Part shown: positions 2,959 to 6,399 of the stretch, in pieces
How positions within the stretch are numbered: position 1 is the first letter of the stretch
How the letters are laid out: the number at the start of each line of letters is the position of its first letter
NCBI GenBank assembly: GCA_026981635.1
Contig: JALSIF010000016.1
Span: forward strand, 1 to 6,399
Source of the DNA: JALSIF01 sp026981635 [NCBI: bacterium]
Lineage (GTDB): Bacteria; 4484-113; JALSIF01
DNA: 6,399 bases
Reading direction: 5' to 3'
The notes under the pieces: model-generated
Databases searched by the model: none
What the model was told of the DNA's origin: nothing
What the model saw: the letters and a program-made list of their open reading frames with translations, nothing else
Translations under genes and position numbers: made by a program

Positions 2959-4206
2959 CTACTCCTCCACCACCAGCGCAAGGTCGTCCATCCGGTCAAG
3001 CACCCTGAAGTCTCGCTTGGCGACGATCTTTGCCCGGGCGGGCCTTTCCCGGCCGGCAAGCTGATCTATCCAGCCGGTCAGGGTATCGCGGCTCATGGTG
3101 CCCACCGAGAGGTCCTGGGGGCTGGGCAGGATGCCGTCTTTTACCGCCTGGTCGTGGAGCTTGTTTAGCTCCTGCTCCAGCAGGCGGGCGGCGGCCGAGC
3201 GGGAGAGACCAGCGGGGACCTTGAAGCGGGAAAGCACCTCACCGCGACGGTAGACCACCTTCTGCTCGGTGGCCAGAAAATCAAGCCTCAGGCGGTCGCC
3301 CACAAAGAGGTTCTCCCGCGCCACCACGATGAGAACCATGTCCTGGTCGCTCTGGGAGAGCCGCTCGGCCACTCCGCTGATGATCTCTGGATCGGGCGGC
3401 TCAACCTCAATGTTTCGCTTCTCAAACTCAACCGTGAGTTTCTTTACCACCTGGCGTACCGCCTGCTCCACCTGGGCCTTACTCCAGCTTTTGGGGATGA
3501 GCAGGTAGAGCAGGGGGTTGTTGGCATAGAGCAGGACCTTGCTGTGGCGCAGGCGAAAGAGCTCCTCCTCCAGCTCCTGCCCCTCCTTCACCAGCGCGTC
3601 GCGCATCTGGCGCTGGAGCTCAATCTGCTTCTGCAGGCGGTCGCGCTCTTTGCGCAGCTCATCAATCTCCTTCTCAAAGCGGCTCTTTTCGGCAGAAAGC
3701 TCCTCCCTCACCCGTTGGTAGTCGCGGCGGGTCTTCTCCAGGTCGGCCTGGAGGGAGGCCAGCTCACCGGTAAGCTGGCTCAGGCGCCGGTTCTGGGCGG
3801 CCACTTCGCGGGAGAGGGTATCAAGCTGTGCGCGAAGCTCGTCCCGCTGGCGGGAAACCTTCTTTAGCTCTTCCTCGGCCCGCTCCCGCTCCCGGGAGAC
3901 CTCGGCCAGCCTGGCCCTGGCCTGCTGTAACTTCTCTCCCGTCTCACTCACCTGGCGCTGGAGCTGGTCAAACTCCAGGATCATCTCGCGCACGTTGTCG
4001 GAGCTTATGAGCAGGACGCCCAGGGTGGCGAGGGCGATGACGATGCCGGTGAGCACCGCGATGGCGCTGGAGATGACCCGGGGGCGCAGGCCCATGAGGG
4101 AGATCTTCCGCTTGGCCACCCGCCAGCCCACCCGGTCGGCGGTGTAGGCCACGATGCCCGAAAGCACCGCCAGAACCAGGGTAAAGATAATGCCCGTCCA
4201 GTTCAT
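2959..4206 (-). CDS. DUF3084-family membrane-anchored coiled-coil protein
   Basis: A 415-residue protein. Two transmembrane helices (about 5-21 and 44-68) flank a short basic loop, ADRVGWRVAKRKISLMGLRPR (residues 23-43). That loop is the hallmark of DUF3084 proteins, known from Cyanobacteria, Deinococcota and some Bacillota, whose function is not established. A long charged coiled coil (about 72-222, rich in E, R, Q and L heptads) follows, then a folded C-terminal domain (about 225-415). The protein is probably a membrane-tethered coiled coil, possibly envelope-related. The start is ATG 4206: the protein begins MNWTGIIF there, and AGGTGGA (4219-4213) lies 6 nt upstream. The same frame stays open upstream to 4701, but that part lies opposite the glutaredoxin gene and is not plausible protein. 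It is followed after 48 bp by metG on the same strand and is divergent from the glutaredoxin gene. Confidence 0.9.
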   Translation of the reverse strand: MNWTGIIFTLVLAVLSGIVAYTADRVGWRVAKRKISLMGLRPRVISSAIAVLTGIVIALATLGVLLISSDNVREMILEFDQLQRQVSETGEKLQQARARLAEVSRERERAEEELKKVSRQRDELRAQLDTLSREVAAQNRRLSQLTGELASLQADLEKTRRDYQRVREELSAEKSRFEKEIDELRKERDRLQKQIELQRQMRDALVKEGQELEEELFRLRHSKVLLYANNPLLYLLIPKSWSKAQVEQAVRQVVKKLTVEFEKRNIEVEPPDPEIISGVAERLSQSDQDMVLIVVARENLFVGDRLRLDFLATEQKVVYRRGEVLSRFKVPAGLSRSAAARLLEQELNKLHDQAVKDGILPSPQDLSVGTMSRDTLTGWIDQLAGRERPARAKIVAKRDFRVLDRMDDLALVVEE

Positions 4207-4254
4207 CGCCGCTCCACCTGAGCCTAAGTTTAGGTGGCCTATGATTAGGCCTCC
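4207..4254. promoter_or_regulatory. Divergent promoter region with CCTAA/TTAGG inverted repeats
   Basis: Only 48 bp separate the divergent DUF3084 and glutaredoxin-like genes. The sequence contains CCTAAGTTTAGG (4223-4234), two 5-bp arms around a 2-bp centre. Two further nested pairs are GCCTAA (4222-4227) with TTAGGC (4245-4250), and CCACCT (4214-4219) with AGGTGG (4232-4237). Such alternating repeats could form an operator for a dimeric regulator of both genes. AGGTGGA (4219-4213, minus) also serves as the ribosome binding site for the DUF3084 gene. No convincing -35 is seen for either direction. Confidence 0.4.
4240..4245 (+). promoter_or_regulatory. -10 box of a probably leaderless transcript for the glutaredoxin-like gene
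   Basis: TATGAT matches the -10 consensus at 5/6 positions and ends 9 nt before the GTG start at 4255. A transcript start 6-8 nt after the hexamer falls at about 4251-4253, so the mRNA would begin at or within 4 nt of the start codon. The upstream bases hold no Shine-Dalgarno. This geometry is typical of leaderless genes, which are common in Deinococcota and some other GC-rich lineages. Applying it here is inference. Confidence 0.4.
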
Positions 4255-4521
4255 GTGGCGGGTGAAAAGCTCGACTTTGTGATCTACATGCGCAGGGGCT
4301 GTCACCTGTGCGAGGTGATGTATGAGCGCCTGCTCCTCCTCATTGAGGTGACCGGCTGGGAGGCGGAGGTTGAGCTGGTTGACATTGACCAGGACCCCGC
4401 CCTCCGGGAGCGCTATGGTGAGCTGGTGCCGGTGCTTGAGCTGAACGGCGAGGAGCTCTGCCACTTCAGGCTGGACGAGGAGCGGGTAAAGAGGGCGGTG
4501 GAGGCGCTCAGACCAGGCTAG
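4255..4521 (+). CDS. Glutaredoxin-like (DUF836-type) thioredoxin-fold protein
   Basis: An 88-residue protein starting at GTG 4255 and read MAGEKLDFVIYMRRGCHLCE. The active-site pair is C16-H-L-C19 after the first beta strand, in the GCHLC context typical of the glutaredoxin-like DUF836 family. The segment VELVDIDQDPALRERYGELVPVLELNG follows, with the cis-proline signature V58-P59 characteristic of thioredoxin folds. A third cysteine (C69) lies near the end. The length fits this family (about 75-95 residues) and there is no signal peptide, so it should be a cytosolic disulfide or thiol oxidoreductase; its partner is unknown. It is divergent from the DUF3084 gene and precedes the thiolase-like gene on the same strand after 180 bp. 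It may have its own leaderless promoter (TATGAT 4240-4245). Confidence 0.85.
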   Translation: MAGEKLDFVIYMRRGCHLCEVMYERLLLLIEVTGWEAEVELVDIDQDPALRERYGELVPVLELNGEELCHFRLDEERVKRAVEALRPG

Positions 4522-4525
4522 ATCA

Positions 4526-4598
4526 GGGCTCAGCCGAAATCCCCCGCTGCTAACAATCAACAGGTGTTGATTAGTCTGTTGACTTATGGGCTGAGCCC
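4526..4598 (+). repeat. Perfect 10-bp inverted repeat pair, long-range stem
   Basis: GGGCTCAGCC (4526-4535) and GGCTGAGCCC (4589-4598) are exact reverse complements 53 bp apart. Three further outer pairs (GAT 4521-4523 with ATC 4601-4603) follow a 2x2 mismatch, so the arm begins at the last base of the glutaredoxin stop codon. Each arm is also a near-palindrome around one base (GGGCT-C-AGCC and GGGCT-G-AGCCC), with centres 62 bp apart, about six helical turns. No T-tract follows, so a simple intrinsic terminator is unlikely. Twin protein-binding sites, or a folded leader or attenuator, are the alternatives. Confidence 0.6.
4555..4572. repeat. 18-bp palindrome AATCAACA-GG-TGTTGATT, operator-like
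   Basis: The arms AATCAACA (4555-4562) and TGTTGATT (4565-4572) are exact reverse complements around a 2-bp centre. This is the size and symmetry of a site for a dimeric helix-turn-helix regulator. It sits between the two GGGCT elements and just upstream of TTGACT (4579-4584), so a bound protein could block or help a promoter there. A 2-nt loop makes it a poor RNA hairpin unless the inner pairs open. The regulator is not in this window. Confidence 0.55.
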
Positions 4599-4656
4599 GT
4601 ATCAGGAGCGGAGAAACGACCGGTTGATAAAGCCCGCCGCGGTGGCCGGTGTTGAT
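4556..4656. repeat. Cluster of five GTTGAY half-sites
   Basis: ATCAAC occurs at 4556-4561 (reverse orientation), GTTGAT at 4566-4571, GTTGAC at 4578-4583, GTTGAT at 4623-4628 and GTTGAT at 4651-4656. The first two form the centre of the 18-bp palindrome. The first and third form a wider inverted pair, TCAACAG (4557-4563) with CTGTTGA (4576-4582). The last two sit in similar contexts (CCGGTTGATAA and CCGGTGTTGATAT). This density in 101 bp suggests several binding positions for one regulator. Confidence 0.45.
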
Positions 4657-4689
4657 ATCGGTTAAGCTTTCTGTGGAAAACTTTTGCCT

Positions 4690-4696
4690 GGGGGTG
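4690..4696 (+). promoter_or_regulatory. Ribosome binding site deciding the TTG start of the thiolase-like gene
   Basis: GGGGGTG (4690-4696) differs at one base from GGAGGTG, and 5 nt separate it from TTG 4702. The in-frame TTG at 4684 has only a weak GTGGAAAA stretch upstream. No ATG or GTG before the first conserved strand (VYIV) would keep the domain whole. Confidence 0.5.
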
Positions 4697-4701
4697 GCCA
4701 T

Positions 4702-6096
4702 TTGCAGCGAAGGACGAGCGAGGTCTACATCGTGGCGGGGGGCCTTACCCCGTTCAGTCGCGCTCAGCAGGAGGCCGACTTTCGGGAGCTCTGCCGGCAG
4801 GCCTTCGCCAGCGCCCTGGGACAGCTACCCGATCTTTCCACTGACGACATTGACGCGGCGGTGATGGCCTACTACTCGGACTACTTCACCAAGCAGTCCT
4901 CGGCCCATCTTGCGGTCCACGACTACCTGGGGCTTGCCCCTAGGCCCTGCATCCGGGTGGATGCGGCCAGCGCCAGCGGGGGGGCGGCGCTGCACACCGC
5001 CTACCTCATGGTGCAAAGCGGCTATGCCCATGTGGTGGTGGTGCTGGGCTTTGCCACCCTGGGGAGGGTCTCCACCAACCAGGCCATTGACCTGCTGTCT
5101 CTTTCCAGCGACATCAACTTTGAGTATCCCCTGGGGGTCTTCTGGTCGGGCTTCTTCGGCATGGTGGCCAACCGCCAGATCCACGAGCTGGGCTGGGACC
5201 CCAAGCTGTTTGACATGGTGAGCATCAAAAACCACGTCAACGCCACCTACAACCCCTACGCCCAGCGGCCCCTGGAGCTCACTCCGGAGGAGATCCACCG
5301 CTCAACCCTGGTCTCCACCCCCCTGCGCAAGCTCCACTGCTCGCTGATCAGCGAGGGGGCGGTCTGTCTGGTGGTGGCCAACGAGGAGTGGGCCTGGCGG
5401 CTGACCGAGCGGCCGGTGCGTATCGCCGGCATCGGGGCGGCCTCCGACACCCTCAGGCTGGCCGACCGGGACCACGGGCAGGTACCCCTGCTCCAGCACG
5501 AGGACCCCAGGCAGTATGAGAAGATGTACGAGCAGGGACTGCGCTATCCGGGAGTGCACCACTTTCGGGCCACCCGCATCGCCGCCCGGGAGGCCTACAT
5601 GGCGGCGGGGATCCACTTCCCGGTGGCGGAGATTGACTTTGCCGAGATCACCGACGCCTACGCCAACCTGGAAATCGCCACCTACGAGGACCTGGGCTTC
5701 TGTCCCCTGGGGGGTGGGCCCGACTTCCTGAGCTCGGGGGCGCCCATGATGCCGGGGATTGACTATGGGATGAGGGACCTGCCTGAGCGGGGAAAGCTCC
5801 CCGTCAACCCCTCGGGGGGGCTTTTGGCCTGCGGCCACCCCATCGGCGTCGGGGGGCTGATGCAGGCGGTGTTCGCCCTCTGGCAGCTCAGGGAGGAGCT
5901 GGCCAGCCGGTTTGCCGATCTCAGGAGCGAGGCGCAGATCTCCTTTACCCCCCTGCAGCTTGAGCGCCCCTTGCGCGGCCTGGTCCACTCCATGGCGGGG
6001 ACCGGCACCATGGCCACGGTGACCATCCTGGAAAGCCCCCTGGCCCGGGAGGTGGAGACGGTGGCGGGTGAGGGGGCGGGGGGATTCATGGAGTAG
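4702..6096 (+). CDS. Thiolase-superfamily protein lacking both catalytic cysteines
   Basis: A 464-residue protein of the SCP2/archaeal-type thiolase family, counted from TTG 4702. It opens with EVYIVAGGLTPFSR, the first strand of thiolases. VDAASASGGAALHTAY (86-101) matches the nucleophile loop (usually VxxACASGGAAL), but Ser90 (AGC, 4969-4971) stands at the Cys position. Next come KNHVNATYNPYAQ (176-188) and LISEGAVCLVV (215-225; usually SDGAAA). In EITDAYANLEIATYEDLGFC, Thr317 replaces the usual His or Asn of HDAF/NEAF. GGLLACGHPIGVGG keeps the catalytic His379. HSMAGTGTMATVTIL (429-443) has Ser430 where biosynthetic thiolases have the second Cys. A DUF35 gene follows after 15 bp, so the two are likely one operon and one complex. 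It probably binds CoA thioesters, but ordinary thiolysis by a Cys nucleophile is not expected. Aldolase-like, acyl-transfer or non-catalytic roles remain open. Confidence 0.9.
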   Translation: MQRRTSEVYIVAGGLTPFSRAQQEADFRELCRQAFASALGQLPDLSTDDIDAAVMAYYSDYFTKQSSAHLAVHDYLGLAPRPCIRVDAASASGGAALHTAYLMVQSGYAHVVVVLGFATLGRVSTNQAIDLLSLSSDINFEYPLGVFWSGFFGMVANRQIHELGWDPKLFDMVSIKNHVNATYNPYAQRPLELTPEEIHRSTLVSTPLRKLHCSLISEGAVCLVVANEEWAWRLTERPVRIAGIGAASDTLRLADRDHGQVPLLQHEDPRQYEKMYEQGLRYPGVHHFRATRIAAREAYMAAGIHFPVAEIDFAEITDAYANLEIATYEDLGFCPLGGGPDFLSSGAPMMPGIDYGMRDLPERGKLPVNPSGGLLACGHPIGVGGLMQAVFALWQLREELASRFADLRSEAQISFTPLQLERPLRGLVHSMAGTGTMATVTILESPLAREVETVAGEGAGGFME

Positions 6097-6103
6097 GGAG
6101 GTG
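6096..6103 (+). promoter_or_regulatory. Ribosome binding site of the DUF35 gene
   Basis: GGGAGGTG starts at the last base of the thiolase stop codon and lies 8 nt before ATG 6112. It is the strongest Shine-Dalgarno on the plus strand, and its overlap with the stop suggests translation coupled to the thiolase gene. Confidence 0.75.
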
Positions 6104-6111
6104 TAGCGACC

Positions 6112-6399
6112 ATGGCCATTGACCCGGAGTTCAGACTGCCCGAGGATGAGAGCCTGGCCGAGGGGAGCGTCATCTTCTCGGTGGAGCCGCTGGTGCTCAG
6201 GGACCACTTTGAGCTCACCTTCCTCCACTCCCTCGCCCAGGACTCCCCCTTCTTTACCAGCCTGGCCGAGGGGGTGCTCACCGGCAGCACCAACCCGGTG
6301 ACCGGGTTTACCTTTGCCACCCCGCGGGCCTGGGACCCCAGCCAGGGCCAGCCCACCCACCCCCAGGAGCTCCCCCCGGAGGGGCGGGTGCACACCTGG
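6112..6399 (+). CDS. DUF35 (OB-fold) protein with a cysteine-free zinc-ribbon relic, partial
   Basis: The frame from ATG 6112 stays open for 96 codons to the window edge, so the C-terminal part is missing. The protein starts MAIDPEFRLPEDESLAEG. Residues 44-59 (DSPFFTSLAEGVLTGS) match the N-terminal helix and 'FxxGLxxGxLxG' part of DUF35 proteins. NPVTG (61-65) and DPSQG (75-79) then sit exactly where the two CPxCG knuckles of the zinc ribbon belong: the knuckle starts are 14 residues apart and PR (71-72) lies between them, as in CPKCG-x(5)-PPR-x(2)-CPRCG. All four cysteines are gone. ELPPEGRVHTW (86-96) matches the start of the OB fold (usually GRGTVYTFT). DUF35 proteins bind a thiolase partner and may help deliver acyl-CoA. 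Its 15-bp distance to the thiolase-like gene supports one complex. The family call rests on position-by-position pattern, not on a search. Confidence 0.7.
   Translation, partial: MAIDPEFRLPEDESLAEGSVIFSVEPLVLRDHFELTFLHSLAQDSPFFTSLAEGVLTGSTNPVTGFTFATPRAWDPSQGQPTHPQELPPEGRVHTW

Follow-up and report, generated by a model that had tools for sequence, protein, structure and literature searches.

What does a thiolase-like protein do without its catalytic cysteine, and why is it encoded next to a DUF35 protein that lacks its zinc cysteines? These questions are raised by a stretch of 6,399 nucleotides, hereafter the window, which is the entire contig C16 (JALSIF010000016.1) of the 1.75-Mb assembly (317 contigs, about 85% complete) of the bacterium JALSIF01 sp026981635. 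A preliminary description of the window proposed that the thiolase and DUF35 genes had lost their Cys residues together, giving rise to a distinct branch of coenzyme A (CoA)-ester enzyme with either new chemistry or a role as acyl-CoA carrier or sensor. Judged from its sequence, the window pair belongs, as a strongly diverged member, to a Gly-type clade in which SCP2-type thiolase-like proteins are encoded together with a stand-alone DUF35, and the nucleophile-free state is clade-wide. The idea of a distinct branch was upheld and both proposed roles stay among the alternatives, but a coevolved, paired loss did not survive the comparison.

Alignment with the solved SCP2-type thiolases 6esq and 7yvy showed that Ser96, within the sequence DAASASGG, occupies the column of the nucleophilic Cys (residues are numbered along the mechanical 470-amino acid open reading frame, ORF, from position 4684). 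In addition, EITDAYA replaces EVHDCFA, and the His and the Cys of the HDCF motif are both lost. The His of the GHP motif is retained. The TTG codon at 4702, which is preceded by GGGGGTGG, is likely a better start than 4684, to judge from the sequence, and gives a protein of 464 amino acids. The DUF35 ORF starts 15 bp past the thiolase stop codon, with a ribosome binding site immediately after the TAG, and leaves the contig end. Contig C13 of the same genome, when reverse-complemented, overlaps C16 with 145 of 146 identical bases over the contig ends, and the joined gene encodes 173 amino acids; the single mismatch makes residue 90 Glu (C16) or Val (C13). In the DUF35 alignment the four zinc positions of the window protein are N61, T64, D75 and Q78, with no C4 or C3H1 knuckle. 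The Ser in the nucleophile column, the DUF35 without zinc Cys and the gene spacing were thus all confirmed as first described. The window portion of DUF35 had no Pfam match when taken alone. The C13 portion matched PF01796 (OB_ChsH2_C; 2.5e-13; 50.2 bits, the cut-off being 27.1) but none of the other Pfam models, a result for which no zinc-bearing relative was run as comparison.

The window thiolase matched the Pfam models Thiolase_N (2e-13) and Thiolase_C_1 (9e-24), and the genome, as far as it is complete, has one match to PF22691 (Thiolase_C_1) and one to PF01796, both in the window pair. The AlphaFold2 model of the 464-amino acid protein (predicted local distance difference test, pLDDT, 84.8; predicted template modeling score, pTM, 0.90; weak stretch at 124-135) had the thiolase fold according to both Foldseek and VIA-align, and the superfamily fold and the GHP motif are both present. 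Its closest neighbors among solved folds are thiolases, in several cases DUF35-bound, including 6esq (Z 47.6), Ltp2 (6ok1, Z 43.8) and Sal (9myr, Z 42.4). For the C13 portion of DUF35 (pLDDT 90.2), the best Protein Data Bank (PDB) match was the DUF35 of 6esq, and the DUF35 chains of the 6esq, Ltp2 and Sal entries match the window partner protein in fold comparison. The best NCBIfam model for the window thiolase was NF004982/PRK06365 (456.4 bits, under the curated cut-off of 695), and its name, 'thiolase domain-containing protein', carries no function.

Relatives were found at 61 loci (numbered with the prefix L) in the main scan of genomes, which include Nitrospirota, Planctomycetota, Bacillota, Thermoplasmatota, Chloroflexota, Myxococcota and Methylomirabilota. 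They are about 39-50% identical to the window thiolase; best-segment identity was at most 48% in near full-length loci, up to 53% in fragments and 42-50% for 50 aligned rows. The nucleophile column is Gly in all 56 readable main-scan loci, plus L005 (EGGGATGG and similar); it could not be read in L089-L092, where the region was not reached, or in L094, for which the thiolase ORF was not obtained. All 17 further loci also have Gly. Six of these form a second subclade (KTGGATGG, with MHAVG or MHSVG), and L019 and L033 form a third (STGGATGG, ATGGATGG). A pair of the STGGATGG type at L124 (genome G028) adjoins genes for an acyl-CoA dehydrogenase and two CoA-transferase subunits. More distant loci have mostly Cys in this column, with some Ser (L011, L015) or Pro (L016, L024). 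At the position of the HDCF motif the relatives have HDAY or HDAF, with YDAY in L046. The five Gly-type proteins scanned with PRK06365 were all under its cut-off (L035, 674 bits; L043, 633; L088, 591; L123, 659; L124, 355).

The gene pair is conserved: a DUF35 gene lies downstream of the thiolase, on the same strand and within 400 bp, in 55 of the 61 main-scan loci. DUF35 is farther away in two others (L041, at 3 kb, and L068) and was not found in three, and in one the thiolase ORF is absent. L049 and L105 share one thiolase sequence. Nineteen of 385 genomes, including that of the window, matched the window thiolase at E 1e-50, the others with no more than 49% identity, and none of nine other genomes from the phylum of the window matched at E 1e-60. 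No title or abstract opening describing a nucleophile-free thiolase-DUF35 family was found in a literature search. The family is widespread and little studied.

In the thiolase tree the window protein and 68 EGGG-type rows make up a single clade (support 99/79), but it is an outlier there. Its end branch is 3.48 versus a median of 0.16, and its placement outside all 68 rows had a support of only 95/21. Of 127 positions at which the 68 relatives are all identical, the window protein deviates at 40, versus 17 of 144 for the worst relative in a leave-one-out comparison. Among the invariant positions common to at least five of six Cys-type thiolases 7 of 45 are altered, versus 33 of 82 among the clade-specific ones, so the fold core is mostly retained and the clade-specific part was remodeled. 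The His of the HDAY motif, present in 67 of the 68 relatives, is replaced by Thr in the window (this position is outside the 127 because of the Tyr in L046), and the second His of HSHAG, present in 68 of 68, is also lost. The residues E273, Y278, Y288, H292, R295 and R298, in the clade-specific stretch at about 273-298, are retained. The L046 thiolase (3507-4760) is the sole family member in which, as in Ltp2 and Sal, a Tyr opens the HDAY motif; it is an early branch, and adjacent genes read as 2-oxoacid dehydrogenase.

Nucleophile loss and zinc loss dissociate in both directions. DUF35 could be scored in 72 of the 77 tree rows; L036, L069, L085, L108 and L116 lacked a scorable one. Most nucleophile-free thiolases stand beside a zinc-intact DUF35: 53 of the 72 partners have all four zinc Cys, 18 have none and one has three (L072). 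The 18 are the window protein and 17 from Chloroflexota. In each of those 17, position 3 is Asp and positions 2 and 4 are occupied by Ser or Thr, similar to the N-T-D-Q of the window. An Asp/Ser-type set was seen in L061, L063, L064, L067, L071, L075-L083, L086-L088, L090 and L094, in a protein that is otherwise conserved; the commonest set in those Chloroflexota loci was DSDS (11 of 19). On the thiolase tree the zinc states require at least three changes, or four if L072 is scored as lost, and a single zinc-less clade was rejected (approximately unbiased, AU, test, p 1.6e-8). On the short DUF35 tree, with the zinc columns removed, it was not rejected (p 0.09), and the window protein groups with the zinc-bearing L034 and L046 with weak support (90/55). 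The case for separate zinc losses therefore comes mainly from the thiolase tree, on which the window is a very long branch.

For the opposite direction, 16 plasmid pairs chosen from 60 of 320 records and six pairs of distant loci were added; L135 and L138, which have no DUF35, were excluded, as were distant loci without a recognized DUF35 and the duplicates among L025-L032. Zinc-incomplete DUF35s accompany 19 of 77 non-Cys thiolases and 3 of 15 with Cys (Fisher p = 1.0, with no correction for kinship), which does not bear out the expected co-occurrence of the two traits. The Cys thiolases whose DUF35 has no or one zinc Cys are L014, L141 and L144, and L014 is from a genome in the window's own class; Cys thiolases beside such partners had been named in advance as evidence against a joint origin. 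The Cys-type DUF35s were scored by eye, and L007 and L012, with columns CCCW and CCCG, have the fourth Cys at shifted spacing. Coupled loss across the family was accordingly rejected by the counts, the tree changes and the AU test on the thiolase tree. Read most directly, the data place a general loss of the Cys first and a loss of zinc, in part of the family, afterwards. Another locus from the window's class, L130 (genome G003), combines an HMG-CoA (3-hydroxy-3-methylglutaryl-CoA)-synthase-like gene with genes for a Cys thiolase and for a DUF35 in which a single zinc Cys of the four is present; biotin carboxylase and carboxyltransferase genes lie nearby, and this is possibly a leucine-pathway module.

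DUF35-bound enzymes with a thiolase fold and another chemistry are already known from the steroid aldolases. According to PMC12329534, Ltp2 and Sal are DUF35-bound thiolase-fold retro-aldolases with catalytic residues of their own, Tyr294/Tyr344 and Tyr302/Cys304, respectively. The window resembles the Ltp2-ChsH2 and Sal-Shy complexes (6ok1, 9myr) in having a thiolase fold and an adjoining DUF35 gene, and by analogy catalysis without the thiolase nucleophile is predicted for its clade. There are also differences. The window protein is 22-24% identical to Ltp2 and Sal, its DUF35 has no fused hydratase, and it has no ligand Cys, whereas the Sal partner binds zinc by Cys3His1. The Tyr that opens the YDHF/YDCY motif of Ltp2 and Sal corresponds to Thr in the window, His in the relatives and Tyr only in L046, an equivalence taken from the description in PMC12329534 and not from direct alignment. 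What is new here is a clade without the nucleophile and, except for L046, without the Ltp2/Sal Tyr.

Other systems are similar in part. The HMG-CoA synthase/thiolase/DUF35 complex 6esq was the best PDB sequence match and the best Foldseek match for both window proteins; however, its thiolase has the Cys, and no HMG-CoA synthase gene adjoins the window pair, which is flanked by a glutaredoxin-like ORF and, converging on it, a coaX-like ORF. BbsAB (7pxp), the benzoylsuccinyl-CoA thiolase, also consists of a thiolase and a DUF35 subunit, but in BbsB the nucleophile column is Cys, and the window protein scored 115 bits against a cut-off of 750. ST0096 (4yzo, Z 49.1) has Ser in the nucleophile column like the window protein, but it has 373 amino acids and, as aligned, lacks the longer C-terminal half. 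PhlC carries Cys88 at the nucleophile, not Ser (PMC6392133).

The genes around the relatives give hints of a pathway. Loci were fetched with up to 10 kb on each side. Neighbor counts are rough because the gene calls were greedy longest ORFs; Pfam and NCBIfam were run on representatives of some neighbor clusters only, and the acetyl-CoA acetyltransferase, 3-hydroxybutyryl-CoA dehydrogenase, branched-chain 2-oxoacid dehydrogenase and electron transfer flavoprotein clusters were named by reading the sequence. Acyl-CoA dehydrogenases were found in 25 of the 61 loci, B12-dependent acyl-CoA mutases in 15 and metallo-beta-lactamase-fold proteins in 10. An acyl-CoA dehydrogenase gene lies immediately 5' of the thiolase, at most 300 bp away, in nine loci (five of them Thermoplasmata), and a mutase gene does so in seven. 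Among 17 mutase large subunits, 13 have Phe/Gln, which we take to indicate isobutyryl-CoA mutase, two have Tyr/Gln, one was unreadable and that of the window genome has Tyr/Arg, presumably indicating methylmalonyl-CoA mutase. The best PDB match of one neighbor mutase was 2-hydroxyisobutyryl-CoA mutase (4r3u), which makes the assignment of isobutyryl-CoA as substrate tentative. IcmF catalyzes the isobutyryl/n-butyryl and pivalyl/isovaleryl rearrangements (PMC10481361). A search confined to 19 pair-bearing genomes, which do not include those of L054 and L058, found a mutase in 18 (E 1e-100) and crotonases in all 19 (E 1e-20). The possibility that the pair replaces an enoyl-CoA hydratase had been considered for gene runs of the L054/L058 type, which read as complete save for a crotonase, and is unsupported given the crotonases in 19 of 19 genomes. 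The metallo-beta-lactamase-fold protein, seen in L034 (6475-7341) and nine other loci, is nearest to YtnP-type lactonases, below that cut-off.

The window itself offers no such context. The pathway that the preliminary description expected past the right edge is not there, as the next gene, on C13, is a converging coaX-like ORF (named by reading the sequence). On the 5' side are a glutaredoxin-like DUF836 ORF (4255-4521) and, on the opposite strand, a DUF3084 coiled-coil gene (2962-4203). The thiolase and DUF35 genes therefore are an isolated two-gene unit.

Taking these results together, we tentatively hypothesize, with somewhat less than even confidence, that the Gly-type family, including the window pair, comprises non-covalent CoA-ester carbon-carbon lyases that would act like the Ltp2 and Sal aldolases while standing outside of them. 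Regarding the complex, its chemistry and its substrate, we infer the following. Thiolase and DUF35 would assemble as their counterparts do in 6esq, 6ok1 and 9myr, with the acyl-CoA in the usual CoA site and no covalent acyl-enzyme. A carbon-carbon bond beside the thioester would be broken or made by acid-base and oxyanion chemistry of the aldol type. Of the motif histidines, the clade retains that of HDxx, which is lost in the window, together with the one in GHP or MHA/MHS. In the relatives, the step may follow the acyl-CoA dehydrogenase in branched-chain acyl-CoA oxidation and act on a beta-hydroxyacyl-CoA. DUF35 would be a structural subunit, its zinc-less knuckle probably held by hydrogen bonds within a polar cluster (Asp/Asn, Ser/Thr, Asp, Ser/Thr/Gln). 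As the HDAY His is missing too from the window protein, this protein probably has another substrate or is heading to a non-catalytic role. Several observations weigh against a lyase. Because the Ltp2/Sal Tyr is absent, the catalytic base would have to be another residue and the aldol reaction is by analogy only; the window DUF35 has no fused hydratase domain; the exact position of the window protein is unsure owing to its very long branch; its pair stands alone in a genome in which the sole mutase found is presumably of the methylmalonyl type; and the neighborhoods name no missing step, since all the pair-bearing genomes have crotonases.

A lyase is not the only function that these data would fit. 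The window pair could be a pseudo-enzyme, keeping the fold and the CoA site but binding acyl-CoA without catalysis, as a scaffold, carrier or sensor. The loss of two His residues that are nearly or fully conserved in the relatives while the fold core is mostly retained, the long branch and the isolated two-gene unit all point that way, as does the SSO2064 paper, which proposed DUF35 as a non-covalent acyl-CoA-delivery protein (PMC2954200). Nevertheless, the retention of the GHP His and of the 273-298 stretch suggests an occupied pocket, and neither ORF is disrupted, with the ribosome site and the spacing both good; this explanation is rather doubtful, although it deserves to be taken seriously. 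It is less probable still, but conceivable, that the clade catalyzes some other non-covalent CoA-ester reaction, such as decarboxylation of malonyl-type thioesters or hydrolytic beta-keto cleavage. Ketosynthase domains with a replaced nucleophile decarboxylate malonyl-type thioesters, replacement of the nucleophile with retention of the oxyanion residues is known in the superfamily, and the acyl-CoA mutase neighbors would suit such a reaction; the commonest neighbor cluster, however, is the acyl-CoA dehydrogenase.

Ser96 lies in the nucleophile column itself, and 4yzo, L011 and L015 also have Ser there, so an acyl-Ser thiolase might be imagined. Since the relatives have Gly, no nucleophile has been maintained, and the window has lost the HDCF His and Cys as well, which makes this very unlikely. 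The most improbable explanation is that both losses were one coupled event creating a new complex. Both are present in the window and the DUF35 tree tolerates a single zinc-less clade, but nucleophile loss extends over the whole clade, mostly with zinc intact, Cys thiolases with zinc-less partners exist, and the thiolase tree rejects such a clade. Returning to the non-covalent lyase, a more inclusive version is somewhat improbable when taken as a whole: the nucleophile-free family of bacteria and Thermoplasmata would perform a non-covalent carbon-carbon step in B12-mutase-linked branched-chain acyl-CoA catabolism, DUF35 would have repeatedly swapped its four zinc Cys for an Asp/Ser-type set (DSDS in Chloroflexota, NTDQ in the window) to yield a metal-free or hard-metal knuckle, and the window would be a re-purposed branch from one genome.

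The coordinates of the features are listed in Table 1. The palindrome ATCAACAggTGTTGAT, with perfect 7-bp arms, sits between the glutaredoxin-like ORF and the thiolase gene. It was the sole match to WTCAACANNTGTTGAW anywhere in the genome assembly, and its regulon was dropped as a clue to the pathway because there is a single site in the genome.

Table 1. Positions of the thiolase-DUF35 pair and associated features in the window
Feature	Coordinates	Strand	Basis
16-bp palindrome ATCAACA-GG-TGTTGAT, candidate operator (putative function)	4556..4571		Read in sequence
Nucleophile-free SCP2-type thiolase-like protein, 464 amino acids	4702..6096	+	Pfam, NCBIfam, AlphaFold2, Foldseek, VIA-align
Ser96 codon, nucleophile column	4969..4971	+	Alignments
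TDAY, residues 323-326 (HDCF in thiolases; HDAY/HDAF in relatives)	5650..5661	+	Alignments
His385 of GHP motif, retained	5836..5838	+	Alignments
Ribosome binding site GGAGGTG	6097..6103	+	Sequence
DUF35 protein (ATG 6112), 96 of 173 codons, rest on contig C13	6112..6399	+	ORF, overlap join, PF01796 match, AlphaFold2
Former zinc site: N61 (6292-6294), T64 (6301-6303), D75 (6334-6336), Q78 (6343-6345)	6292..6345	+	DUF35 alignment

The DUF35-thiolase complexes known so far are thiolases, HMG-CoA modules, acylases and steroid aldolases. A nucleophile-free clade that extends from Thermoplasmata to Chloroflexota, and whose genes often lie close to those for acyl-CoA dehydrogenases and isobutyryl-type mutases, suggests that the breakdown of branched-chain acyl-CoAs includes a step not yet described. 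The presence of zinc-free and zinc-bearing partners within one family is a natural experiment on the role of the DUF35 zinc.

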